Made by a program: the position numbers and the translations under genes. This document shows positions 4,902 to 25,422 of a DNA stretch of 27,779 bases, piece by piece (position 1 is the stretch's first letter; each line of letters begins with the position of its first letter). Below the pieces are notes generated by a model. The model was not told the origin of the DNA. It saw only the letters and a list, made by a program, of their open reading frames with translations, and did not search any database. The stretch spans positions 1 through 27,779 of IMG/VR virus record IMGVR_UViG_3300032738_000260; one strand, given 5' to 3'. This DNA is from a virus.

Positions 4902-5626
4902 AATCCGTTATGATTCATGGCATATGTGCTAGCCTTATATAAACTGTATGGTTGGCCAGCGTCTGACCAAAACCCTTCTAGTATTTCATGACGCATCATT
5001 CCGTTTTGTATATACCAATTATTAACGTCCGAAATTTCCTGTTCACCACGTGCTGATGGTTCAAGACGTCTGATAACATCCCAAACTAATTTATTATAAA
5101 AGTATAATCCAGTCACAGCAAAGTTTGTCTTTGGATTTTTTGGTTTCTCTTCTATTTCTGTTATCACATCATTCACTATCGTAGCAACTCCGAATCTTTC
5201 TGGATCATCTACTGAGCTTAAAAATACCTTGGCTTTATCTGAATCTTTAACATATGAATCTACTCTGTCTTTTATATTGTCTCCGAATATATTATCACCA
5301 AGTATAACTGCAATAGGGTCATCTTGTGCAAAGTCTTTACATAACCATAGAGCTGCTGCAATCCCACCAGCTTCTTGCTGTGTGCGGTATGTGAAGTTAG
5401 CTCCAAAATTACTACCATCGCCAAGCAAATTGATAAAGTCTCCAGCGTGTTCTTTACCAGTGACTATCATTATGTCTTTTATCCCAGCTGATACCAATGT
5501 ATTGATAGGATAGTAAATCATCGGATTATCATAAACTGGTAAAAGATGCTTGTTCGTAGTAAGTGTCATAGGAAGCAACCTTGTTCCATTTCCTCCTGCC
5601 AAAATAACTCCTCTACATTTTGTCAT
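4889..5626 (-). CDS. rmlA: Glucose-1-phosphate thymidylyltransferase-like nucleotidyltransferase
   Basis: A sugar nucleotidyltransferase that joins a sugar 1-phosphate to a nucleoside triphosphate; dTTP plus glucose-1-phosphate is the usual reaction of this family. The signature GGNGTRLLPMT lies at residues 11-21, with Lys26 in NKHLLP and the metal-binding Asp111 in LGDN. EEKPKNP and a late FWSDAGQPYSL block match the family. At 245 residues it is shorter than typical RmlA (about 290), lacking the C-terminal extension, so substrate choice is uncertain. It lies 4 nt from the RmlD-like gene, and together they form a nucleotide-sugar cassette. The enzyme would act in the cytoplasm of the infected cell. 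Confidence 0.9.
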   Translation of the reverse strand: MTKCRGVILAGGNGTRLLPMTLTTNKHLLPVYDNPMIYYPINTLVSAGIKDIMIVTGKEHAGDFINLLGDGSNFGANFTYRTQQEAGGIAAALWLCKDFAQDDPIAVILGDNIFGDNIKDRVDSYVKDSDKAKVFLSSVDDPERFGVATIVNDVITEIEEKPKNPKTNFAVTGLYFYNKLVWDVIRRLEPSARGEQEISDVNNWYIQNGMMRHEILEGFWSDAGQPYSLYKASTYAMNHNGLCST

Positions 5627-5630
5627 ATAA

Positions 5631-6449
5631 TTATTGAATTTGTTTATTAATCGCGTATTGAACTAACAGATCTTCCATTGATTCTTTGACATTTCTCATG
5701 TCCAAACTAGAGGCCAATATATTATTTGATCTAGTCTTTTTCGCTAATCTACTATTAACTAATTCGTCTGCTGTAATCCATTCTTTTTTTATACTAGCAT
5801 CAACATATATCTTATATAGATCAATAATCTCTCTGTGTGTTATTGATCCAGAGTTCACCACATGATATATACCAGACATCTTTTTTAGCATTAGTTCATA
5901 AAACATATCTATCATGTCGCTAACAATTGTTATACTATTTTCAACATCAACTATTTTGTCATAGCTAATTAGCTTATCAATTAAGTTGCCTGGATGTGGT
6001 ATGTGGTCAACTGGCATTCTAATTCTTGCTATGCCGACATTTGGCATTGTCTGTAGCACTAGGTCTGCTGCATATTTGGTTCTGGTATAAGTTGCTATGG
6101 GATTTGCATAATCACACTCTTTCCAACCACCATCTTTATATCCGTAATAAATACAACCAGTACCAATATGCAGCATATACACACCTTTCTTATTACATGC
6201 TTCAGCTGCCATTACTGGTATGATTGTATTTCCTTTAAAAGTTTCGTATTGATTATCCTCGCACCAATCTACATTTGGCTTGCCAACAATCCCAGCTGCG
6301 TTTAATACTGCGTCTGGTTTATAACGATCAATTTCATCAGTAACACTTTTTACAGATGTAATTCTTTCTCCAGACATTATTGCTTTGTCTCCCCATGTGG
6401 CAAGACAACGTTTACCTAGCCAACCATTTCCAAATATTAAAATACGCAT
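5631..6449 (-). CDS. RmlD-like dTDP-sugar reductase/epimerase (SDR family)
   Basis: An extended short-chain dehydrogenase with a Rossmann motif GxGxxG (residues 7-12), an NAAG segment at 50-53 and a catalytic Tyr121-x3-Lys125 pair. The GTGCIYY block followed by YTRTKYAAD resembles dTDP-4-keto-rhamnose reductases of the RmlD and plant RHM/UER type. It would reduce or epimerise the keto-sugar made from the RmlA product. No dehydratase (RmlB) or 3,5-epimerase (RmlC) is present in this window, so the pathway depends on host enzymes or genes outside it. The gene ends 4 nt upstream of rmlA. Confidence 0.85.
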   Translation of the reverse strand: MRILIFGNGWLGKRCLATWGDKAIMSGERITSVKSVTDEIDRYKPDAVLNAAGIVGKPNVDWCEDNQYETFKGNTIIPVMAAEACNKKGVYMLHIGTGCIYYGYKDGGWKECDYANPIATYTRTKYAADLVLQTMPNVGIARIRMPVDHIPHPGNLIDKLISYDKIVDVENSITIVSDMIDMFYELMLKKMSGIYHVVNSGSITHREIIDLYKIYVDASIKKEWITADELVNSRLAKKTRSNNILASSLDMRNVKESMEDLLVQYAINKQIQ

Positions 6450-6451
6450 AT

Positions 6452-6748
6452 TTATAGTGATGGTTTTGAGCTTTGATCTTTAAGCTGTTTAATAATCCCT
6501 TGTACCTCTGCTGGGCCAAAAAGTGTCTGTTCATCATTTAACCATTTTAACATTTCACCTTTTTCATCCGCACTTATATCCATCTTTTCCATCTCAACTT
6601 TTACCTTATTCTTTGCCCTGTCTAAATCTTCACGTTTCAATACCCACTCTATAATTGGTGTGAATATTCTATGCGCCATCATAATCTCTTTACTACAATG
6701 AGGACACATCGATGGTACTATAATTTTAATTACTTTTTGTTCTTCCAT
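6452..6748 (-). CDS. Small CxxC zinc-binding protein
   Basis: An unrecognised protein of 98 residues from the preferred start at 6748. A start at 6796 would add 16 residues and overlap the upstream gene by 41 nt. Near the N-terminus is CPHC within a short hydrophobic-basic segment, one half of a possible zinc knuckle. No second Cys pair is visible, so metal binding may need dimerisation. The rest is charged helix. It stops 2 nt before the RmlD-like gene. Confidence 0.7.
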   Translation of the reverse strand: MEEQKVIKIIVPSMCPHCSKEIMMAHRIFTPIIEWVLKREDLDRAKNKVKVEMEKMDISADEKGEMLKWLNDEQTLFGPAEVQGIIKQLKDQSSKPSL

Positions 6749-6755
6749 ACTATAA

Positions 6756-7076
6756 TTATTTAAAGAATTCTCGCATTTGTTCTTTTGTTGCTTCAAGTAT
6801 TAATGCTCTATTTATACTATTAATCATTTCGTCACAACTTTCACTCATCCCATTTCTTATAGCATCTTTTATCTCATGTGGAGCATCTTCTAATGCTGAA
6901 TAAGCATTTTCCATAACTGTTTTTTTCATAATTTTAATTTGCCATTCTGTTAAGACACTAACTTCAACAGCTTTGATGGCTTTTTCCATGTTGACGCCTT
7001 TTGATGGTTGTACTTTTTTCTTGGTCTTTGTTGTTTTTGCTTTTTCTACTTTTGCTTTTGTGTTAGTTTTTTTCAT
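6756..7076 (-). CDS. Hypothetical protein with lysine-rich N-terminus (106 aa)
   Basis: The first 30 residues are mainly Lys, Thr and Ala, a basic disordered tail suited to nucleic-acid contact. The remainder is a compact helical domain. An internal Met30 could be an alternative start that removes the tail. No family recognised. The 5' end overlaps the RuvC-like gene by 14 nt, showing tight coupling in the leftward operon. Confidence 0.7.
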   Translation of the reverse strand: MKKTNTKAKVEKAKTTKTKKKVQPSKGVNMEKAIKAVEVSVLTEWQIKIMKKTVMENAYSALEDAPHEIKDAIRNGMSESCDEMINSINRALILEATKEQMREFFK

Positions 7077-7597: not shown

Positions 7598-7879
7598 CTA
7601 TTGTTTAATCAAGTCGTCAAAACTCTTTAGTTTCCCGATTGCAATATTTTCACTATTTTTATTATCTTCAATCTTTTCTATTTCACTGGCTATTTTCTTT
7701 ATTGTTATACTGTCATTTAATATCATTGTGAAACTATCTTTTTTATATTCATTATCATTCTCCAATCTTTTTTCTATATTATCCAACACATCTTCTAAAT
7801 CACCACCAGTAGTTGTTTCTAGTGTATGCCACTTTGATCCGTTTTTAATATATGATCCATATACGCTATATACTTTCAT
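7598..7879 (-). CDS. Hypothetical protein (93 aa)
   Basis: No family recognised. The N-terminal half looks like a small alpha/beta domain with several aromatic residues, followed by an acidic and lysine-rich helix. It has no cysteines and no membrane segment. It is packed between the SPFH gene (1 nt away) and the RuvC-like gene (1 nt away). Confidence 0.7.
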   Translation of the reverse strand: MKVYSVYGSYIKNGSKWHTLETTTGGDLEDVLDNIEKRLENDNEYKKDSFTMILNDSITIKKIASEIEKIEDNKNSENIAIGKLKSFDDLIKQ

Positions 7880-7880
7880 A

Positions 7881-9203
7881 TTATACGTTTAATGATTTTT
7901 GTTTATCGTTCACCTTATCAGTGTTAGTAACCTTACTGATGATATTCTTTATATCACCCAAGTCTAAACCTTCCATCATTTGACCTAAGTCTCCACCAGT
8001 TTCAGCATTCATTGGAATGCCAAGTATTGAAGCACCTTTACCAGAGTTAACAACTTTGATCTCAGCATTTTTAGCAACCATCCCGTAAGCTGCCCATTCT
8101 GCTTTTTTAACTTCAATATAAGCGCGAATCTTTTCAACATTGGTAGCTGCGTCGTTAAACTTCTTCATAGCTTCAGCCATCTTATCCTTTGCTATAGCTT
8201 CAGCTTCTCCGTTTGCTCTAACAACATCAGCGCTAGCCTGACCTCTAAGTTTTATTACATCAGCTTCTTTTTCACCTTTCACAAGGTATGCTTGCGCTTC
8301 TCCATTGGCTACTTCAACTGTTGCCTCTTTTTGGACACTAGCTTTACCAACTTCCAAAGTTCTAAGTGCTGAAACCTTTTGTGCATTTGCTAATTCTTCT
8401 TGTTTAGCAACGTCCATTACTTGTTCTTGTTCTGAGATACCAATCTGTTTATCTTTTTCAATTTGACGTTTTCGCAAAGCTTCTTCTGCTTCAGCTGTAG
8501 CAACTTCTGCAGCTCTATGATTCTCTTGTTCTACCTCAATTGCTTCTCTGTCCATCACTGAATTTTTCTTTCTGGCATCAGTGTTTATTTTTACTTTTCT
8601 AATGCTTTCGTAATCAGCGATAACTCTTGAATTTTTAGAGTCATCATCTTTGATGTCAATTACTTCAAGGTTAATTAATTTTACTCCCCATTCTGACAAT
8701 GTTTCATCTACCACAGAGCTAACTGATTCTGAGAAAGTTTTACGGTCTCTCAAGATTTCTAATATCTCTTGTTTCATTGCAGCTTCTCGAGATGTAGCGT
8801 GTACGATACTCTCCAAATCTTCACTTAATGAACCGAATACACCTCTAGGATGATCCACATTAAGACGTTCAGAAGCCATAATTGGGTCGTCGATACGTAT
8901 CCATGAAATTACATCACAAATAAATGGAGCAACTTCTTGGTCTTTTAACTGAATATTAGCTATACTCATCTTTACATTCGTTAACGGTAATATCTGTCTT
9001 GTCATTAGCCTTGGGATGAAAAAGTAACTAGTTTTACCACTAACATCTTCTCTACCTGCTAACTTTGGAGCATACACCTTCCTACCACTTCCCATGCGCA
9101 CAACTATATGAGCCTCATTTGGGTCTACTACTTTATATATAGCTAGGAATATAACTACTACTAGTAACAATCCTGCTAATATACTTGGAATCAATATAAT
9201 CAT
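7881..9203 (-). CDS. Flotillin-like SPFH/band 7 membrane protein
   Basis: An N-terminal membrane anchor (about residues 5-24, LLLVVVIFLAIY) is followed by a band 7/SPFH domain to about residue 200. A long Ala/Glu-rich coiled coil of flotillin type follows (about 210-345, many EA repeats), then a short C-terminal tail. Flotillins form large membrane-associated cages and organise membrane patches; the family is normally a cellular gene. At 440 residues the protein is full-length and intact. It lies in the recombination operon, between sbcD and the RuvC-like gene. In a phage it could anchor replication complexes, guard against membrane damage or block superinfection; these roles are inference. 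Confidence 0.93.
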   Translation of the reverse strand: MIILIPSILAGLLLVVVIFLAIYKVVDPNEAHIVVRMGSGRKVYAPKLAGREDVSGKTSYFFIPRLMTRQILPLTNVKMSIANIQLKDQEVAPFICDVISWIRIDDPIMASERLNVDHPRGVFGSLSEDLESIVHATSREAAMKQEILEILRDRKTFSESVSSVVDETLSEWGVKLINLEVIDIKDDDSKNSRVIADYESIRKVKINTDARKKNSVMDREAIEVEQENHRAAEVATAEAEEALRKRQIEKDKQIGISEQEQVMDVAKQEELANAQKVSALRTLEVGKASVQKEATVEVANGEAQAYLVKGEKEADVIKLRGQASADVVRANGEAEAIAKDKMAEAMKKFNDAATNVEKIRAYIEVKKAEWAAYGMVAKNAEIKVVNSGKGASILGIPMNAETGGDLGQMMEGLDLGDIKNIISKVTNTDKVNDKQKSLNV

Positions 9204-9244: not shown

Positions 9245-10261
9245 TTATTGTATTAATGACCAGGCTGAAAGTAAATCTTTCTCTGGCATCTTTTTTTGCT
9301 TAGCGTATGTCTTTAATAGCTCTTCAATATTAAAGTCTATCATCGTACCTTCTTCGAAATGTATTTTTTTTCTTTCATTTGGATATCGTTCCATTAGGAT
9401 GTATGCATCGAAATCTTTCTTTAGTTTATTTTTTATGCTCTCTATTTTCGGAGCTGTTTGCTTTTTTGTTAGAACTACTTTAACGATGTTGCCCTTTGGA
9501 ATATCTGCCAAAGATTCCACAGTAGGATTTTCTTCATTGAATATCTTTCTTCCTGGTAGTGGTATACGTTCATGGGTCAGTTTCTTCTCGTCTATTTTCC
9601 ATATGTCTTTGCCCAACTCTCCAATTTCAGAGTTGAAGATGCTCCCAGTTACTATTAAATTTCCATCAGACTGTGGTGTGTGAATGTGCCCTCCAACTAT
9701 TAATTTGTATTTTTTATCTAACTTTACTCGTGGCAATACAATTTCATCGAATAAATCTGCTGTGCTTCCTGCACTAGTTATTGTTCCACTAACTGCATGA
9801 TGATGAAACAATATATCAGCTGGGATTAGCTTATCCAATAGCTTCTTACATGCTTTGTCGTTATCATCAGTTCCTAATTCTACTTTGTAATGGTATGGAC
9901 AGAATGTCATATTGCCAACATTAACTACTTCATTTGTATAAATATGCCAGTTCGGATTATTTATTTCTTTCAGGAAGTCTATTGCAGTTTTGCCATCGGC
10001 TTTTTTGCAGTGATTGCCAGCGAGCATGTGTATTTCCTTACTTTCAAATCTCTCAATGAATTCAACGAACTCTCTAATAACTTCTGATGTATTATTTTTG
10101 CTGTTAAGTTGATCTCCCATGAATACAATTTTGTCGCAATCCTTGAAGCTGGTTACAATAAAATCTAGTATCTCTTTTTTTTCTGCAACACGTTGATCAG
10201 GAATGAAATCTGCATACCCGAGTTTTTCTTTAAAATGTAAATCTCCGATTACGCCGATCAT
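9245..10261 (-). CDS. sbcD: SbcD/Mre11-like (T4 gp47-type) nuclease
   Basis: A calcineurin-fold metallophosphoesterase that partners the SbcC-like ATPase. The five phosphoesterase motifs are in order: GDLHF (Asp7, His9), FMGDQ, LAGNH, FHHH and GGHIHTPQS. A C-terminal cap region follows, which in Mre11 proteins binds the ATPase arms. At 338 residues it has phage gp47 length. It is separated from sbcC by eight genes, including the SPFH gene and the sugar cassette. A gap of 1 nt separates it from the 81-aa gene upstream. Confidence 0.93.
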   Translation of the reverse strand: MIGVIGDLHFKEKLGYADFIPDQRVAEKKEILDFIVTSFKDCDKIVFMGDQLNSKNNTSEVIREFVEFIERFESKEIHMLAGNHCKKADGKTAIDFLKEINNPNWHIYTNEVVNVGNMTFCPYHYKVELGTDDNDKACKKLLDKLIPADILFHHHAVSGTITSAGSTADLFDEIVLPRVKLDKKYKLIVGGHIHTPQSDGNLIVTGSIFNSEIGELGKDIWKIDEKKLTHERIPLPGRKIFNEENPTVESLADIPKGNIVKVVLTKKQTAPKIESIKNKLKKDFDAYILMERYPNERKKIHFEEGTMIDFNIEELLKTYAKQKKMPEKDLLSAWSLIQ

Positions 10262-10262
10262 A

Positions 10263-10508
10263 TTATCTTTTTTTTAATAAATATATTATTTGTCTCATGT
10301 TCATCATGATTTTTTCTCTCAATGCATCTGACTCTCCTTTTGATGCTCTCCATTGTTTTAGATTTTTCTTCAATTTTCCTATTTCAGCTATAGTTTTTAT
10401 GTGTGGTTCATATCCAAACACAAATCTAGTCTTCTTCAGCTCTTCATTATATTCTTTTTCAACTTTTCTGAAGTTATCTTTTATTCTTAATTGACTTATT
10501 AGTGCCAT
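10263..10508 (-). CDS. Hypothetical basic protein (81 aa)
   Basis: A small, Lys/Arg-rich, helical protein with no recognised domain. It is the first gene after the long structured non-coding region, so that region may be its 5' leader. The ATG at 10508 has only a weak GGA about 8 nt upstream. It stops 1 nt before sbcD and is probably co-translated with it. Confidence 0.7.
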   Translation of the reverse strand: MALISQLRIKDNFRKVEKEYNEELKKTRFVFGYEPHIKTIAEIGKLKKNLKQWRASKGESDALREKIMMNMRQIIYLLKKR

Positions 10509-10528
10509 AGTATTCCATTAATATTATC

Positions 10529-10827
10529 TCTATAGACTCTGCAGTGTGACAGCTTTGCTAGACGTTATATTGACATCCTAATCGGTTGACTTTATAACTA
10601 TCCACCTTAGGTTTAGCCGTGGAGAGGTCCGAAGACCTCACTGCAAAGCCTATAGAAAAAACATTTATTTACTATATGTAGGGGACGAAAATCTCTTTTC
10701 GTCACCTGGATTTTATAACGTTTACGCGTAAGACTGCATTAGTCTTCGAAGAAGCTGTGCCAGCTCTGGTAACCGTCACCGTTGGCATCCTGACCAGTCC
10801 TATTAAGGTGGTCACTAATCCCTACAT
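10529..10827 (-). ncRNA. Candidate two-domain structured RNA
   Basis: This is most of the only gene-free stretch over 300 nt (10509-10920), and no convincing ORF lies in it. Read on the minus strand it folds into two closed domains. Domain A (10827-10676) is closed by ATGTAGGG/CCCTACAT. It holds TGACCA/TGGTCA with a CCT/AGG inner stem, TGCCA/TGGCA enclosing GGTGA/TTACC, AAGACT/AGTCTT, and an 8-bp hairpin with a GAGA (GNRA) loop stacked on the closing helix. Domain B (10656-10529) is closed by TCTATAG/CTATAGA and TGCAGTG/CACTGCA. It holds a hairpin with a C(UUCG)G loop, TCCAC/GTGGA and GTTATA/TATAAC. The tetraloops have RNA-type sequences only on the minus strand. No riboswitch, RNase P, tmRNA or group I/II core motif was recognised. 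Confidence 0.72.
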
Positions 10828-10865
10828 GTAATAAATAAATTTAATATAACTATTACGCCATTATT

Positions 10866-10914
10866 GGGTTAAAAATTAATCCCCTCCTAGCACTAGTAGA
10901 TGGCGAGCCTACTA
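10866..10914 (-). other. Hairpins and orphan Shine-Dalgarno 3' of the HNH gene
   Basis: Directly after the HNH stop, minus-strand TAGTAG/CTACTA (10914-10909 with 10899-10894) forms a hairpin without a U-run. AGGAGG (10888-10883) follows; it matches a perfect Shine-Dalgarno sequence but no start codon lies at a usable distance. A GGG-TTAA / TTAA-CCC stem (10884-10866) with a one-base bulge comes next. These may be the 5' part of the structured RNA at 10529-10827. The interval 10828-10865 holds nothing I can name. Confidence 0.45.
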
Positions 10915-10920
10915 ATGTAC

Positions 10921-11442
10921 TTATATATTCAATATTGATTTAAGTTTTCGTTTTACTACGCCCCGATTAACTTTATCGATTGAAATAGCTTTGTCAGTTA
11001 GTCTAGTATACCATTCTTCACCTCTTCGCTTTGTTATTGCTTCAATGAAATCAAGTATTGTTTTGTGTGCTGATAATTTACTACTTATTATGTGATGTGT
11101 TGAACAAACCAGTGAGCAATTTTCTATGTCCCACCTTACCGCCATATTGGAACGGCCTATTATGTGATGTGCGTTTAATTCTCTTTTGATACCGCATATT
11201 TCGCATTTTCCTTTATAATATTTCCTGGCAGCTTTGCTCCATAATGTATCTAGCTCACTATTTGTATTCTTGGTTGTGCTATTAACAAACTTAACTTTTT
11301 TCTTTTTACCACCTTGTTTCATCAAATTCTTAGCGTACCTTTGTTCGTTCAAGCATTTATTACAAAATCTCGATTTTTTAATTCCATTCATAAAAAAAAG
11401 AGTAAATTCTTCGTTACATTGTGGACATACATCAGCAACCAT
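10921..11442 (-). CDS. NinG-like HNH endonuclease with N-terminal zinc ribbon
   Basis: From the start at 11442 the protein has 173 residues. A zinc ribbon (Cys6, Cys9, Cys27, Cys30) is followed by a basic linker. An HNH nuclease domain comes next: Cys80-x2-Cys83, His92-His93, Asn108, Cys113 and His116-His117. The C-terminal block with RRGEEWYTRL is typical of phage NinG/Rap-type recombination endonucleases, which act on branched DNA; a homing or nicking HNH enzyme is the alternative. The start at 11442 is chosen over 11478 because AGAGAGGAG lies 5 nt upstream, one of the few strong ribosome sites in the window. The gene is flanked on both sides by structured non-coding sequence. Confidence 0.88.
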   Translation of the reverse strand: MVADVCPQCNEEFTLFFMNGIKKSRFCNKCLNEQRYAKNLMKQGGKKKKVKFVNSTTKNTNSELDTLWSKAARKYYKGKCEICGIKRELNAHHIIGRSNMAVRWDIENCSLVCSTHHIISSKLSAHKTILDFIEAITKRRGEEWYTRLTDKAISIDKVNRGVVKRKLKSILNI

Positions 11443-11447
11443 ATTTA

Positions 11448-11456
11448 CTCCTCTCT
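11448..11456 (-). promoter_or_regulatory. Strong ribosome binding site fixing the HNH start
   Basis: Minus-strand AGAGAGGAG ends 5 nt before the ATG at 11442. It decides against the upstream in-frame ATG at 11478. It stands out because most genes here have AT-rich leaders with no such site. Confidence 0.75.
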
Positions 11457-11484
11457 TTCTTTTAAAATTAATCACCACCTAAAT

Positions 11485-11573
11485 GGTATATCTCGAGAAT
11501 TGTGATTACAAGGCCATTTACAAACCTTATAAAATTTAGAGACATACCATCCAGGCGGCGAACCGCCATGGAT
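11485..11573 (-). ncRNA. Structured leader between the OB-like gene and the HNH gene
   Basis: Two helices are visible on the minus strand. First, GGCGG/CCGCC with a UUCG loop, extended by ATCCA/TGGAT across one bulged base (11549-11573), starts just after the stop of the upstream gene. No U-run follows, so it is not a standard terminator. Second, a 10-bp helix, GGTATGTCTC/GAGATATACC (11548-11539 with 11494-11485), encloses an AAGG/CCTT stem. Its single G-U pair forms only on the minus strand, supporting an RNA role. It may protect mRNA ends or belong with the downstream structured RNA. Confidence 0.55.
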
Positions 11574-11574
11574 C

Positions 11575-12267
11575 TTATTTTTTAAGGAACTCTAGAATTT
11601 GAGGATAGTTAGATTCTAGGAATGCTAACTTTGTTTCTTCCATTACTTTGTTTTTTGCCGCATCTTCATCATCTAGGCTATATTTTACCTTTGCTAGGTC
11701 TATAATCTCTTTCAGGGCTGCTTCTGGGCTACTAGGAGCCTCTACAGGAGCTGTTGGGGGTGTTGGGGGTGTTGGGGGTGTTTCTGGTGATTGAGTGCCA
11801 CTTACTGGTGTAGACGGTGCTACAGGCTCATTAAATGAATCTTTGATATCATTCATTTCCAACCATTCCGCATCAACCATTTTCTTATCTTGATACAATT
11901 GAATGATGTGGGTTGGATTGGCTGTGGTATTTTCTTTTGTCCCTTCAAATACCAAAGCTATAATTTGACCTAATTTTGCATTGGTCATCTGGCTATCAAT
12001 TAATGATTTGCCTTCAGCTTTGCCCCAAACTATGTATTTCTCGTCTTCTTCAGCTGCTGTTGATACTCCATCAGATATGATTGTTTGCCCTTTTGGTACT
12101 TTAATCTCATATACCATTTTATCTTCCATCTCTGTGCTCATATATTTTTTAGCAGTAGCCATTCTCTTGTCTACTAATGTACCTTCGATTTTGTCTCCTA
12201 TTTTTTTAAATTTCATGGTTGTTCCAAAACCAGAAACTTTGTTTTTATCGTTTATTACTGACTGCAT
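11575..12267 (-). CDS. Possible OB-fold single-strand DNA-binding protein with Pro-rich linker
   Basis: The N-terminal 130 residues have a beta-rich pattern (GDKIEGTLVDKR, then YEIKV, YIVWGK and IIALVFEG) that suits an OB-like fold such as phage single-strand DNA-binding proteins; this is a pattern judgement, not a family match. A Thr/Pro-rich linker (about residues 155-180) contains three TPP repeats. A helical C-terminal domain of about 50 residues follows. It is the first gene after a consensus promoter (12335-12363) and is therefore probably made in quantity, as expected for a DNA-binding protein. Stem-loops follow its stop. Confidence 0.75.
   Translation of the reverse strand: MQSVINDKNKVSGFGTTMKFKKIGDKIEGTLVDKRMATAKKYMSTEMEDKMVYEIKVPKGQTIISDGVSTAAEEDEKYIVWGKAEGKSLIDSQMTNAKLGQIIALVFEGTKENTTANPTHIIQLYQDKKMVDAEWLEMNDIKDSFNEPVAPSTPVSGTQSPETPPTPPTPPTAPVEAPSSPEAALKEIIDLAKVKYSLDDEDAAKNKVMEETKLAFLESNYPQILEFLKK
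11752..11778. repeat. Triple 9-bp tandem repeat in the Pro-rich linker
   Basis: TGTTGGGGG is repeated exactly three times (11752-11760, 11761-11769, 11770-11778) on the plus strand and encodes the TPP repeats of the minus-strand gene. It puts three G5 runs in a row, one short of a simple G-quadruplex, on the non-coding-RNA-like plus strand. It is probably a slippage-prone linker. Confidence 0.85.
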
Positions 12268-12334
12268 ATTATATTTTGTATTATGTATTAATCTTATGTA
12301 TTATGTATCGACCTTTATATAAGGAACTTCCGTT

Positions 12335-12363
12335 ATTATACCATACTTCTTTATACTTGTCAA
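12335..12363 (-). promoter_or_regulatory. Sigma-70-type promoter with ACTTGACAAGT operator (leftward, third)
   Basis: Minus-strand TTGACA (12363-12358), a 17-nt spacer and TATAAT (12340-12335) are a perfect consensus. The -35 box sits inside the palindrome ACTTG-A-CAAGT. The spacer contains AGAAGTATGG, shared with the promoters at 16041, 17534 and 21975. It starts the OB-like/HNH/RNA/sbcD/SPFH/sbcC unit about 60 nt before the ATG at 12267. Confidence 0.93.
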
Positions 12364-12367
12364 GTGC

Positions 12368-14059
12368 TTATCTTTTTTCCTTGTACGTTTTTAGCACATC
12401 ATTCATTAAATTCACTTTTTTTGTATTTCTACCTAGTTTTTTACCATCTATTAATTGTTCAAACAACTCTTTCTTTTTTTCTAGTATTTCCTGTATTTTT
12501 TCATCAATGGTGTTTTTCGAATAGAGTTGATAAATTGAAACGCTCCCTGCTTTTTGACCAATACGATGGATTCTATCTGCAGCTTGCCAATGATCGGCTG
12601 GTACAAATGAATAATCGATGAATAACACATTTGAAGCCGCGGTTAAAGTTATTCCAGCTCCTGCACTTTTCATTCCGCCTAAGAATACTTTCTTGTCTGG
12701 GTTATTCTGAAAATCATTAATTATATCTCTTCTTTCTTCATTTCCTGTACTTCCAATTATCATTACAGCTTGTTCTCCAAAATATTCTTTTAATTGTTTT
12801 AATGGTTCGTTGTATACAGAGAACACAACTATCTTCTGACCACTATCTAGTACTTCATTAATCAAGTCTTTAGCTGCATATATTTTTCCTCTAGAGCAAA
12901 TTTGCCGTAGTTCATTTAGTTTTACCAACACACCTGCTTGTTGGCTGCTGGTTATCTTTTTACCTTTTATTTCTCTTAGGTAATCAACAAAAGATTCCTC
13001 CGCAAAATCATAATTCTTGGCACTTTCTTTATCTAGCATTACTGGTCTATCGATGAATTGTTTTGGTGGCAATTCTGTCAATACATCACTCTTTTTTCTG
13101 CGGAGAAAATAATGAGATATTTTTTCTTGTAGCTCTTCTATATTTGTTGCACGTGAAGTATCAAGACCAAACCTAGTCCGTTTAGCTCCGCAATAACGCA
13201 ATACATATCCGTACCAATCATTCCAAGTCGTAGGATCAATTAGATTTAAACCATTAAATAATTCAACGGGTCTATTTAGGATTGGTGTTCCGCTCAACAA
13301 TAGAATTGATTGAATTTCTTTTGCTATTTTTTTTACTTCTTTCGTACGCTTGGCTGCTGTGTTTTTAATGTAATGAAACTCATCTGCAATTAGACAGTTC
13401 CATTTTCTACTGGTAATCAAATCTGAAAATTTTACCAATATATCATAGTTAATAATAAATATATCATTAGTGTGATAAGCTTCATCGCTTAATGCTTCTT
13501 TGTCTTTACTGTCTATCACAGAAGATTTTAATGATGTCCATTTCTTTACTTCGCTTTCCCATGCATATTTTACACTTGCTGGACATATTACTAATGTCTT
13601 TTTTTTATTTGTGTGAACTGCATATGCAAGAGCCTGAAAACTCTTTCCAATTCCCATATCATCTGTTAGCATAGCCCGTCCATTATTATTAACAAAAAAC
13701 TCCACCCCAACTTTTTGGTATGGATATAGTTCACCTTTTATTCCTTCAATTTTAATATCTGAATCTGTAGATTCTTTGATTTCTTTTGCTTTTATTATCC
13801 TAGACGCCATTTCTTTTTTTGTGCGCTCAAACATCTCGGCATCTTCTTGCATACTGACGTGTATTGATGCATGTGGATATTCTTTCACAATATCATTCAT
13901 AATATTCATATCATTGAATCTCCACTTACGCTCGTTGTAATTGATATTCGCATATCCATATTTAATCTTGAGCGTACGCATGTAATTCAGATATTCATAA
14001 TTGAAGTTAAAGTCTATTGCGTATTTATATTTTATATTTTGTGCTTTGTATATTATCAT
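12368..14059 (-). CDS. SNF2-family DNA helicase/translocase (SMARCAL1-like layout)
   Basis: A two-lobed SF2 ATPase. Walker A is DDMGIGKS (133-140), the DEAH-like box is DEFH (226-229), motif III is SGTP (256-259), and a C-terminal QAADRIHRIGQ motif VI lies near 495. The N-terminal 100 residues, ending before the helicase core, resemble the HARP-type substrate-recognition region of fork-remodelling enzymes; that part is inference. It would anneal or regress DNA forks, or move along duplex DNA during phage replication and recombination. At 563 residues it is compact, as phage versions are. The promoter of the next unit begins 10 nt before its stop and reads away from it. Confidence 0.92.
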   Translation of the reverse strand: MIIYKAQNIKYKYAIDFNFNYEYLNYMRTLKIKYGYANINYNERKWRFNDMNIMNDIVKEYPHASIHVSMQEDAEMFERTKKEMASRIIKAKEIKESTDSDIKIEGIKGELYPYQKVGVEFFVNNNGRAMLTDDMGIGKSFQALAYAVHTNKKKTLVICPASVKYAWESEVKKWTSLKSSVIDSKDKEALSDEAYHTNDIFIINYDILVKFSDLITSRKWNCLIADEFHYIKNTAAKRTKEVKKIAKEIQSILLLSGTPILNRPVELFNGLNLIDPTTWNDWYGYVLRYCGAKRTRFGLDTSRATNIEELQEKISHYFLRRKKSDVLTELPPKQFIDRPVMLDKESAKNYDFAEESFVDYLREIKGKKITSSQQAGVLVKLNELRQICSRGKIYAAKDLINEVLDSGQKIVVFSVYNEPLKQLKEYFGEQAVMIIGSTGNEERRDIINDFQNNPDKKVFLGGMKSAGAGITLTAASNVLFIDYSFVPADHWQAADRIHRIGQKAGSVSIYQLYSKNTIDEKIQEILEKKKELFEQLIDGKKLGRNTKKVNLMNDVLKTYKEKR

Positions 14060-15972: not shown

Positions 15973-16040
15973 ACTCACAAAAGAAAACGCTATAGATAAT
16001 TCATAATATTTTTATTTAATAATTAAACCTAACTATCTTA

Positions 16041-16069
16041 ATTATATTATACTTCTTAATACTTGTCAA
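16041..16069 (-). promoter_or_regulatory. Sigma-70-type promoter with ACTTGACAAGT operator (leftward, second)
   Basis: TTGACA (16069-16064), a 17-nt spacer and TATAAT (16046-16041) on the minus strand. The palindrome around the -35 box and the AGAAGTAT spacer block match the other class-A promoters. It drives the Myb-like, glycosyltransferase, MerR-like and SNF2 genes. CACTTAGCACTT just upstream repeats half of the operator. Confidence 0.92.
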
Positions 16070-16084
16070 GTGCTAAGTGATATA

Positions 16085-17501: not shown

Positions 17502-17533
17502 ATATTTTATTTATTTATTTAGCGTCTGAATTA

Positions 17534-17562
17534 ATTATACCATACTTCTTAATACTTGTCAA
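17534..17562 (-). promoter_or_regulatory. Sigma-70-type promoter with ACTTGACAAGT operator (leftward, first)
   Basis: TTGACA (17562-17557), a 17-nt spacer and TATAAT (17539-17534) on the minus strand, with the same palindrome and spacer block as the other class-A promoters. A second TTGACA-like half overlaps upstream (TTGACACTTGACA). It drives the winged-helix gene and parB, and lies back to back with the rightward promoter at 17608. Confidence 0.93.
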
Positions 17563-17584
17563 GTGTCAACCAACTACCCCGCTA

Positions 17585-21774: not shown

Positions 21775-21978
21775 ATGCCCGAAGAAGAAAAAACTCTTAG
21801 AAGCGAAATAAATGACGAAAAACAAGAGATAGAAAAAAAGTCGACCAATTTGGCTGATATTGCAATGGATAAAGTGTCAACAGAGCAATTATTAAGGTTA
21901 AAATATGATGAAGAAACTGACTACAGAAAAAAAGCATCAATAGCAGCCCGAATTATTAGTTTAGGACTTGATACTTGA
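21775..21978 (+). CDS. Small coiled-coil protein (67 aa)
   Basis: A Glu/Lys-rich helical protein with no known family. The ATG at 21775 is the conservative start. An in-frame TTG at 21706 would add 23 residues with a hydrophobic stretch (ALKYILWYLGATLTL) and would fill the gap after the primase-helicase. A GGGGG lies 12 nt before that TTG, so the longer form is possible. The stop codon overlaps the -35 box of the next promoter. A GAGCG/CGCTC hairpin lies between the two possible starts. Confidence 0.6.
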   Translation: MPEEEKTLRSEINDEKQEIEKKSTNLADIAMDKVSTEQLLRLKYDEETDYRKKASIAARIISLGLDT

Positions 21979-22003
21979 CAAGTGTTGAGAAGTGTGGTAT
22001 AAT
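21975..22003 (+). promoter_or_regulatory. Sigma-70-type promoter with ACTTGACAAGT operator (rightward)
   Basis: TTGACA (21975-21980), a 17-nt spacer and TATAAT (21998-22003). It shares the palindrome over the -35 box and the GAGAAGTGTGG spacer block with the three leftward class-A promoters. It starts the MucR-like gene and the small-gene cluster. The -35 box overlaps the preceding gene's stop. Confidence 0.93.
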
Positions 22004-22046
22004 ATATATATGAAAATAAACATGTAAAAAATTACACCCCTAGGTT

Positions 22047-22580
22047 ATGTGCATACAAAAAACAAAAACTGGCTGGAAAGTTGAAATTAGAACACAATGT
22101 AAAATATGTGGCGGTCCGCTTCCTAGTAATCGTCATCGTACTTATTGTTCTAAGAAGTGTAGTCAAAAAGAATATACACAACGGTACAAGGAAAAAAGAA
22201 CAAATTGGCAAAGAAAAAAAAGAGATAGAGAAGCAGCTAAATTTTCTCCATTGAAAGTACAATGTCTGGTGTGTGGAAAATATTATGTGCAGGTCTGCAC
22301 ACATGTATTACAGGTTCACAAAATTACAGCCAGAAGATATAAACAAGAGTTTGGACTTGATGTGAAAAAAGGAAGAGTTCCGAAATGGTATAGATTTAAG
22401 AAGGGGTTACAGGCCATTGAAAATGAAACGTATCTTAATCTAAAAAGTGGAGAAAAGTATTGGTTCAAAAAAGGAGATAAAGAAGTTGGAAAATATGAAC
22501 GTAGCAATGAAACAATGGAAAGATTAAAAGTATTATATAAATTAACCGAAGCTTATGCCAAACGAAAAGTGGAAAGATGA
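22047..22580 (+). CDS. MucR/Ros-like zinc-finger regulator
   Basis: A 177-residue protein with two metal sites. The first is a treble-clef-like ribbon (CKICGGPL, then YCSKKCSQ). The second, VQCLVCGKYYVQVCTHVLQVH followed by KITARRYKQEFGL, has the C-x2-C...H-x4-H layout of Ros/MucR transcription factors. The C-terminus is basic. It is the first gene after a class-A promoter and is therefore a second candidate, beside the winged-helix protein, for the regulator of those promoters. Some phage proteins of this type are HNH-associated or structural, so the regulatory role is inferred. Confidence 0.85.
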   Translation: MCIQKTKTGWKVEIRTQCKICGGPLPSNRHRTYCSKKCSQKEYTQRYKEKRTNWQRKKRDREAAKFSPLKVQCLVCGKYYVQVCTHVLQVHKITARRYKQEFGLDVKKGRVPKWYRFKKGLQAIENETYLNLKSGEKYWFKKGDKEVGKYERSNETMERLKVLYKLTEAYAKRKVER

Positions 22581-24453: not shown

Positions 24454-24763
24454 TCAAGAGGTAAAAGCGGAAGCTACTCGCCTGTTACAAGAAGCTGTTA
24501 ATAGCCCTGACAAAAATAAAATTGAAGGGTGGGATTATTATTTGGTCAAAGCTGAGAAAAGTTTGCGCAAAGAAGTAGTGGTAGATAAATACAGGGAAAA
24601 ATTAGAAAAAGAATTGGAGAAGTTCAAAACAGCGTGCTTAGCTAAATATGAAAAAGGAAGAGAGGAGCACAAAGAAGACTTGGCAGAGCTAGATATAGAT
24701 AAGGAAATCTATGATGAAATGCTAGATATAATTAATTATACGTTGATTAAGAAAATAGTATGA
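24440..24763 (+). CDS. Hypothetical coiled-coil protein (107 aa)
   Basis: A Lys/Glu-rich helical protein beginning at the ATG at 24440. A frame-extended start at 24371 lies within the previous gene and adds an unlikely sequence. It has no known domain. It overlaps the DUF2958 gene by 14 nt and the homing endonuclease gene by 4 nt. Confidence 0.7.
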   Translation: MANHSQEVKAEATRLLQEAVNSPDKNKIEGWDYYLVKAEKSLRKEVVVDKYREKLEKELEKFKTACLAKYEKGREEHKEDLAELDIDKEIYDEMLDIINYTLIKKIV

Positions 24764-25422
24764 AAGCAAGAGAATTTGTACTTGGAGACAAAGGTACCGA
24801 AATAATTTTAGGCAGTTTACTTGGAGATGGTTGTATTCCAAAAAGAACTGGTAGAGCAAAAAGCTTTACCCTTTCTTGGGAACATAGTTTAAAACAAGAA
24901 GAATACGCTATATGGAAAGCTGAAAAATCTAAAATAGAATATAACATATATAAAAGAAGTCGTCTTGATAAAAGGACTAATAAAACATATCATTCTATAA
25001 CTGTATATAGTACTGGAATAGATTTTAAAGAATTTCGTAACTTGATATATCCATTAGGTATTAAAATAGCACCAAAAAAAGTTTTAGATATGTTAACACC
25101 ACTAAGTATAGCTGTTTGGTTTTGTGATGATGGTAGTATGTATTATAACGGTAATAATTGTCATCTTTCTTTAGGTATTAATTATTTCAAAAATAAAAAA
25201 GAAATTATTGATTATTTTAAAAAGAGGTGGGGATTAAATTTTAAACTATCTTGCGGAGCTATAAGACTAACATCTATTAAAGAAGTAGATAAGTTTGAGA
25301 GATTATTTAGTAAATATTACCCACCAATGATGGAGTATAAAAAACTATCATTTAATAAGAAAAAATATGACAAAACACTCACAGATAAACAAAAAAATTA
25401 TAGAAACAAAAAATACAAATAG
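24760..25422 (+). CDS. LAGLIDADG homing endonuclease
   Basis: A 220-residue protein with two LAGLIDADG helices: ILGSLLGDGCI (residues 16-26) and LSIAVWFCDDGS (about 123-134). Each ends in the acidic metal-binding Asp (Asp23 and the Asp-Asp pair). It is a single-chain two-motif enzyme of the free-standing or intron/intein-derived class. It would cut a long DNA site and copy itself into genomes lacking it. The gene is not inside an intron or intein that I can see. Its 3' end runs 56 nt into the phosphatase gene, suggesting recent insertion at that junction. Confidence 0.93.
   Translation: MKAREFVLGDKGTEIILGSLLGDGCIPKRTGRAKSFTLSWEHSLKQEEYAIWKAEKSKIEYNIYKRSRLDKRTNKTYHSITVYSTGIDFKEFRNLIYPLGIKIAPKKVLDMLTPLSIAVWFCDDGSMYYNGNNCHLSLGINYFKNKKEIIDYFKKRWGLNFKLSCGAIRLTSIKEVDKFERLFSKYYPPMMEYKKLSFNKKKYDKTLTDKQKNYRNKKYK

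Follow-up and report, generated by a model that had tools for sequence, protein, structure and literature searches.

What is the large folded RNA that lies between two genes of a phage recombination operon, and does it belong there? The question arises in IMG/VR record IMGVR_UViG_3300032738_000260, a linear sequence of 27.8 kb and 33% G+C, analyzed here over its full 27,779 nt ("the window"). Genes in the left part of the window, including recombination and sugar genes, lie on the minus strand and are read leftward, and those in the right part are read rightward. The RNA occupies the longest non-coding stretch, a gap of 412 nt (10509-10920); a preliminary description had called this the only long one, but gaps of 276, 181, and 161 nt are also present. 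No ORFs of at least 38 aa overlap the RNA. As argued below, it probably belongs to a small, intron-like mobile element and is not an independent virus gene.

Fold and architecture of the RNA

The minus strand of 10529-10827 has a minimum free energy of -102.1 kcal/mol, compared to -72.3 ± 5.0 for shuffled sequences (z -5.9; 0 of 200 shuffles reached this value). On its plus strand the same stretch folds less strongly (-93.1 kcal/mol, z -5.1), and the entire gap (10505-10924, minus strand) gives a z of -6.5. When the minus strand was scanned across the window in 198 non-overlapping 140-nt tiles (mean z -0.4, sd 1.3), the lowest value, -6.8, was that of the second of the two domains described below. 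The UUCG and GNRA loops have the correct reading on the minus (transcribed) strand only. The elaborate folded structure is genuine, and the fold z-scores, strand bias, and loop identities confirm its earlier assignment to the minus strand, which is that of the operon.

The gap (10509-10920) holds two domains, each closed by a stem of about 20 bp, together with an upstream hairpin. All of the helices in the preliminary description are present on the minus strand, including the two closing helices; these were given as 7-8 bp, but the actual stems are longer, about 20 bp in each domain. In Domain 1 (10663-10840, minus strand), the 8-bp inner closing helix, AUGUAGGG/CCCUACAU (10827-10820/10683-10676), is continued outward by a 12-bp AU stem (10840-10829/10674-10663). 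Across the domain, most pairs have a probability of at least 0.9. Its interior includes a UGACCA/UGGUCA hairpin; a three-way arm, with GAGCUG/CAGCUU and CGAAGACU/AGUCUUACG hairpins; and a hairpin with an 8-bp stem, GACGAAAA/UUUUCGUC (10703-10696/10691-10684), and a GAGA (GNRA) loop. This last abuts the closing helix directly (the hairpin, 10703-10684, ends where the helix starts, at 10683), in agreement with the stacking proposed for it.

Domain 2 (10527-10658, minus strand) is closed by a continuous 20-bp stem (10658-10639/10546-10527), of which the UCUAUAG/CUAUAGA pairing named earlier is a part. It carries a C(UUCG)G hairpin, GAGGUC-UUCG-GACCUC (10639-10624), and an inner arm, ACGGCU/AGCUGU (10620-10615/10554-10549), whose GUUAUA/UAUAAC tip is less certainly paired. 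On the other side of Domain 1, a 10-bp hairpin (10891-10917, minus strand) follows the stop codon of an HNH endonuclease gene; a possible pseudoknot would join its loop, CGCCAU (10905-10900), to AUGGCG (10861-10856). The structure was suspected of reaching past 10827, and does so: it extends to 10917, and resumes beyond the HNH gene.

The HNH gene and its operon

On the operon strand the order is SSB-like gene, RNA, HNH gene, RNA, and then an 81-aa ORF and sbcD. The SSB-like gene (P0003; 11575-12267, minus strand) has a full-length homologue in a related contig, L171 (40% identity in the alignment); the sbcD-like nuclease gene (9245-10261, minus strand) is the downstream flank of the insertion site. 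The 81-aa ORF between the RNA and sbcD (10263-10508, minus strand) has no Shine-Dalgarno sequence, gave no result in a homologue search, and is missing in both relatives with this gene order (L171 and L189, below). An operon promoter with 12 of 12 consensus matches (TTGACA, 17 nt, TATAAT; 12335-12363, minus strand) reads into the RNA-HNH-RNA segment. Since there is no strong promoter or terminator inside this segment, all of its parts should share one operon transcript. The same operon includes a gene for an SPFH/Band 7 protein (7881-9203), with a similar protein encoded in the related contig L008 (10654-11556).

The window has four near-identical promoter blocks (12325-12368, 16031-16074, 17524-17567, and 21957-22010), with a TTGACAAG-type -35 and a TATAAT -10, which appear to be a set of regulated promoters belonging to the phage itself. 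The last is inverted (plus strand) and drives the rightward genes; beside it is a weak HNH/ROS_MUCR-like gene (22047-22580), with a related short match in L008 (1761-1865).

The HNH gene itself (10921-11442, minus strand; 173 aa from the ATG at 11442) encodes a protein with an N-terminal zinc-finger-like CPQC...CNKC motif and a NinG/Rap-like HNH core. It has a Shine-Dalgarno AGGAG (11448-11452, minus strand), the only one among 38 genes examined; its start context, AAAGAAAGAGAGGAGTAAAT-ATG, has an energy of -11.3 kcal/mol to the anti-Shine-Dalgarno sequence, where the mean is -0.5 (sd 2.7; 1 of 38 genes). The remaining genes start behind A-rich leaders. As the owner of the sole Shine-Dalgarno sequence, the HNH gene looks imported from another host background, and the RNA around it would by inference have come from there as well. 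The phage genes are nearly all without Shine-Dalgarno sequences, yet their promoters follow the sigma-70 consensus. The nearest relatives are in Neomarinimicrobiota and Ignavibacteriales MAGs.

The RNA upstream of the HNH gene (11470-11574, minus strand; z -6.6) begins directly after the SSB-like stop codon. It forms a 23-bp stem, UCGCCGCCUGGAUGGUAUGUCUC (11561-11539) with GAGAUAUACCAUUUAGGUGGUGA (11494-11472), or alternatively a short hairpin, GGCGG-UUCG-CCGCC (11567-11554). Pairing between this 5′ stretch and the 3′ RNA is no better than in shuffles (65 of 300 and 24 of 300), and the two fold as separate arms; a single RNA joining them by base pairing was rejected, shuffled sequences pairing equally well. 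The earlier proposal of a phage RNA of about 300 nt stands as to structure, lack of coding, and strand bias, but not as to self-containment, the RNA being one side of an RNA-HNH-RNA insertion.

The gene junction in relatives and searches for homologues

Alignment of the SNF2 helicase led to four related contigs: two viral (L008 and L009), one from a Neomarinimicrobiota MAG (L171), and one from an Ignavibacteriales MAG (L172). The first MAG contig, L171, is syntenic with the window, with a helicase (48%), an SSB-like gene, sbcD (45%), a RuvC-like resolvase (47%), and sbcC (38%). A mere 57 bp separate its SSB-like stop codon from the start of sbcD, and this interval contains no HNH gene, RNA, or small ORF. 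The SSB-like C-terminus in the window coincides with the L171 end; from this match, the SSB-like gene of the window is uninterrupted, and the element begins after its stop codon. On L189, which is the contig of L008, an sbcD homologue (39%) also follows the SSB-like gene, and exactly between the two (1922-2491) there is a homing endonuclease gene of the NUMOD4-HNH_3 kind, a different family from that of the window's HNH gene.

A homing element should have relatives in which its site is without it, and here one relative lacks the element and the other has a different HNH gene in its place. An insertion at the SSB-like/sbcD junction is therefore well supported; because L189 holds a homing gene at the same junction, it appears to take such genes recurrently and, judging from these gene orders, to be a place where they come and go. 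The preliminary description had set lack of conservation against its proposal of an undescribed phage RNA, and the region is indeed missing in both syntenic relatives.

The SNF2 helicase has an intein-like interruption near Walker A in L172 (1174-3495) and L171 (8521-11278). In L171 the interruption is LAGLIDADG-bearing, and the helicase copy is divided between two frames at a run of Ns. The helicase of the window has no such interruption. In the rightward operon of the window there is a LAGLIDADG_2 endonuclease gene (24760-25422), with no structured RNA noted around it. In L009, GroEL- and GroES-like genes (5466-7076 and 7698-7973) adjoin the helicase.

The RNA is at present an orphan, represented as an RNA class by a single sequence. 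Rfam gave no match at gathering level and none credible up to E = 10, in keeping with the earlier impression that no known class was represented. A search of related contigs, also proposed earlier, yielded no homologue of the RNA in cultured phages, plasmids, selected loci, or about 640 distinct bacterial genomes. By blastn, 50,697 phage and 72,556 plasmid records returned short AU-rich or chance pieces only. Covariance models, each built from the single sequence of one domain, matched just the window itself in viral and bacterial loci totaling about 1.05 Mb; the Domain 1 model had no credible match in 244 Neomarinimicrobiota genomes, where blastn of the RNA also found none, nor the Domain 2 model in 396 genomes of L172's phylum. 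Exact 16-mers, one from each domain, had only chance matches in viral contigs, the best apparently within a reading frame.

Searches with the proteins gave a similar picture. Scans of viral contigs with the HNH, sbcD, or DnaB protein alone found no relative. An HNH motif scan picked out 3 loci and an HNH alignment 13, all of them NinG-like genes; in viral contigs the nearest proteins are free-standing and NinG/Rap-like, with up to 47% identity over the core. The RNA was not matched in the flanks of these loci, two of which, when folded, had z-scores of -2.1 and -1.7. Neomarinimicrobiota and L172's phylum yielded nothing beyond weak HNH matches, one of them in a false frame; neither there nor in the viral contigs did the full HNH protein have a close homologue.

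A proposed homing element and its alternatives

The explanation we tentatively prefer, at a little under an even chance, is that the RNA forms the non-coding portion of a homing-type RNA-HNH-RNA element that was acquired horizontally, is spread by its HNH protein, and is tolerated by virtue of its RNA. An element of about 1.05 kb (roughly 11574-10520) would have been inserted between the SSB-like gene and sbcD, with RNA and HNH gene forming one mobile unit. The HNH protein, made from its own strong ribosome site, would cut an element-free copy of the junction, and repair would then copy the element in. Within the operon transcript the folded RNA would keep the insertion tolerable, most likely through its own excision, whether by self-splicing or by processing, or at the least by keeping the cistrons insulated from one another. 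This reading draws on the strong RNA folds to both sides of the HNH gene, the empty L171 junction and the other homing gene in L189, the foreign Shine-Dalgarno sequence, the intact frame of the host gene, and the minus-strand UUCG and GNRA loops, as well as on the established clustering of homing genes near essential phage genes (PMC10448857). Against it, the element boundaries rest on one copy, as the searches turned up neither an RNA homologue nor a close relative of the complete HNH protein; no canonical group I core could be put together from its RNA, and Rfam is blank where two known phage introns score; it is located between genes, where an intron need not splice; its 5′ and 3′ RNAs pair only at shuffle level; and its HNH core is nearest to free-standing NinG/Rap-type proteins without such RNA.

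Two kinds of known element resemble it in part. Like HNH-bearing phage group I introns (I-HmuI of Bacillus phage SPO1 gene 31), it has structured RNA surrounding an HNH gene that carries a ribosome site of its own, and is inserted beside phage replication/recombination genes; unlike them, it showed no canonical group I core, is between genes instead of within one, and has just about 105 nt of RNA ahead of the HNH gene. Free-standing homing endonuclease gene islands (PMC10448857) also place a foreign gene between operon members, as the NUMOD4-HNH gene at the junction in the relative does, but the HNH gene studied here has strongly folded RNA both before and after it.

As a second possibility, though a doubtful one, the RNA might represent a new class of ornate, free-standing non-coding RNA that is released from the operon transcript by processing and acts in trans, with the HNH gene a mere neighbor. 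It has two large many-armed domains, GNRA and UUCG loops, and no coding potential, and there is a precedent in GOLLD and ROOL, phage-borne ornate RNAs of unknown function (PMC12286853). Compared to these it is smaller, is known from a single example in all of the collections searched, has no tRNA genes nearby, and has no sequence or covariance-model match (at the gathering threshold or with E up to 10), the GOLLD and ROOL models included. It is also without its own promoter or terminator, and a free-standing RNA would leave the other structured stretch, beyond the HNH gene, to be accounted for.

It is unlikely, thirdly, that the RNA is simply a cis-acting element of the operon mRNA, its long stems serving as ribonuclease sites, stability elements, or an attenuator to uncouple the SSB-like, HNH, and sbcD genes. 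Its position in an operon mRNA behind one promoter would suit such a role; the 20-bp and 23-bp stems are plausible sites for double-strand-specific processing, and about 18 nt separate the end of the Domain 2 stem from the point where the 81-aa ORF begins. However, the RNA is much more elaborate than this role needs, and the relatives have the same operon without any such element.

Self-excision could also be imagined in a stronger form, in which the two RNA stretches are one catalytic RNA of an undescribed kind, neither group I nor group II, that excises itself around the HNH homing gene; we consider this quite unlikely.

Phage introns have this same arrangement, with structured RNA around an HNH gene, and a divergent or decayed group I intron missed by the Rfam model would be a more familiar form of self-excising RNA. 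The RNA has R-like (GACUAAUG, approximately 10744-10737) and S-like (AUAUAGU, approximately 10677-10671) stretches, but their pairing would be without the guanosine-site G-C pair. The group I model (RF00028) had no match in 10480-11620 up to E = 10; with the same permissive settings, the T4 nrdD intron scored 105 bits and the HNH-bearing SPO1 gene 31 intron 25.6 bits, the latter below the gathering score and with only part of the intron recognized, a point in favor of an intron that the model misses. Enumeration of contiguous helices gave no P3-P7-P8 core with a G-C guanosine site that was compatible with the dominant stems, and the best combination puts a G-U there and disrupts the 20-bp stem. 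A canonical group I intron was rejected on these grounds, and a divergent one is improbable, although the element may still function like a group I intron. Rfam also had no match to group II intron models or domain V.

Use of the RNA by the adjoining HNH nuclease as a scaffold or guide, like the OMEGA RNAs of IscB and IsrB, is very improbable: the HEARO RNA of IsrB is of comparable size (343 nt; PMC12286853) and likewise lies beside an HNH-containing nuclease gene, but its model is unmatched here, the HNH protein was found to have no RuvC-like or PLMP parts, the RNA is on both sides of the gene, and a search for transposon ends or repeats found none.

If the RNA is free-standing after all, the few large phage RNAs whose function is unknown gain one more member, without a match among them. 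If, as in the homing-element reading preferred here, the RNA and HNH gene move together, they would make up a homing element whose RNA is outside the known intron types. The SSB-like/sbcD junction is also a clear case of a phage gene junction that differs among three lineages, one having it empty, another with a plain homing gene, and the window with a homing gene wrapped in RNA.
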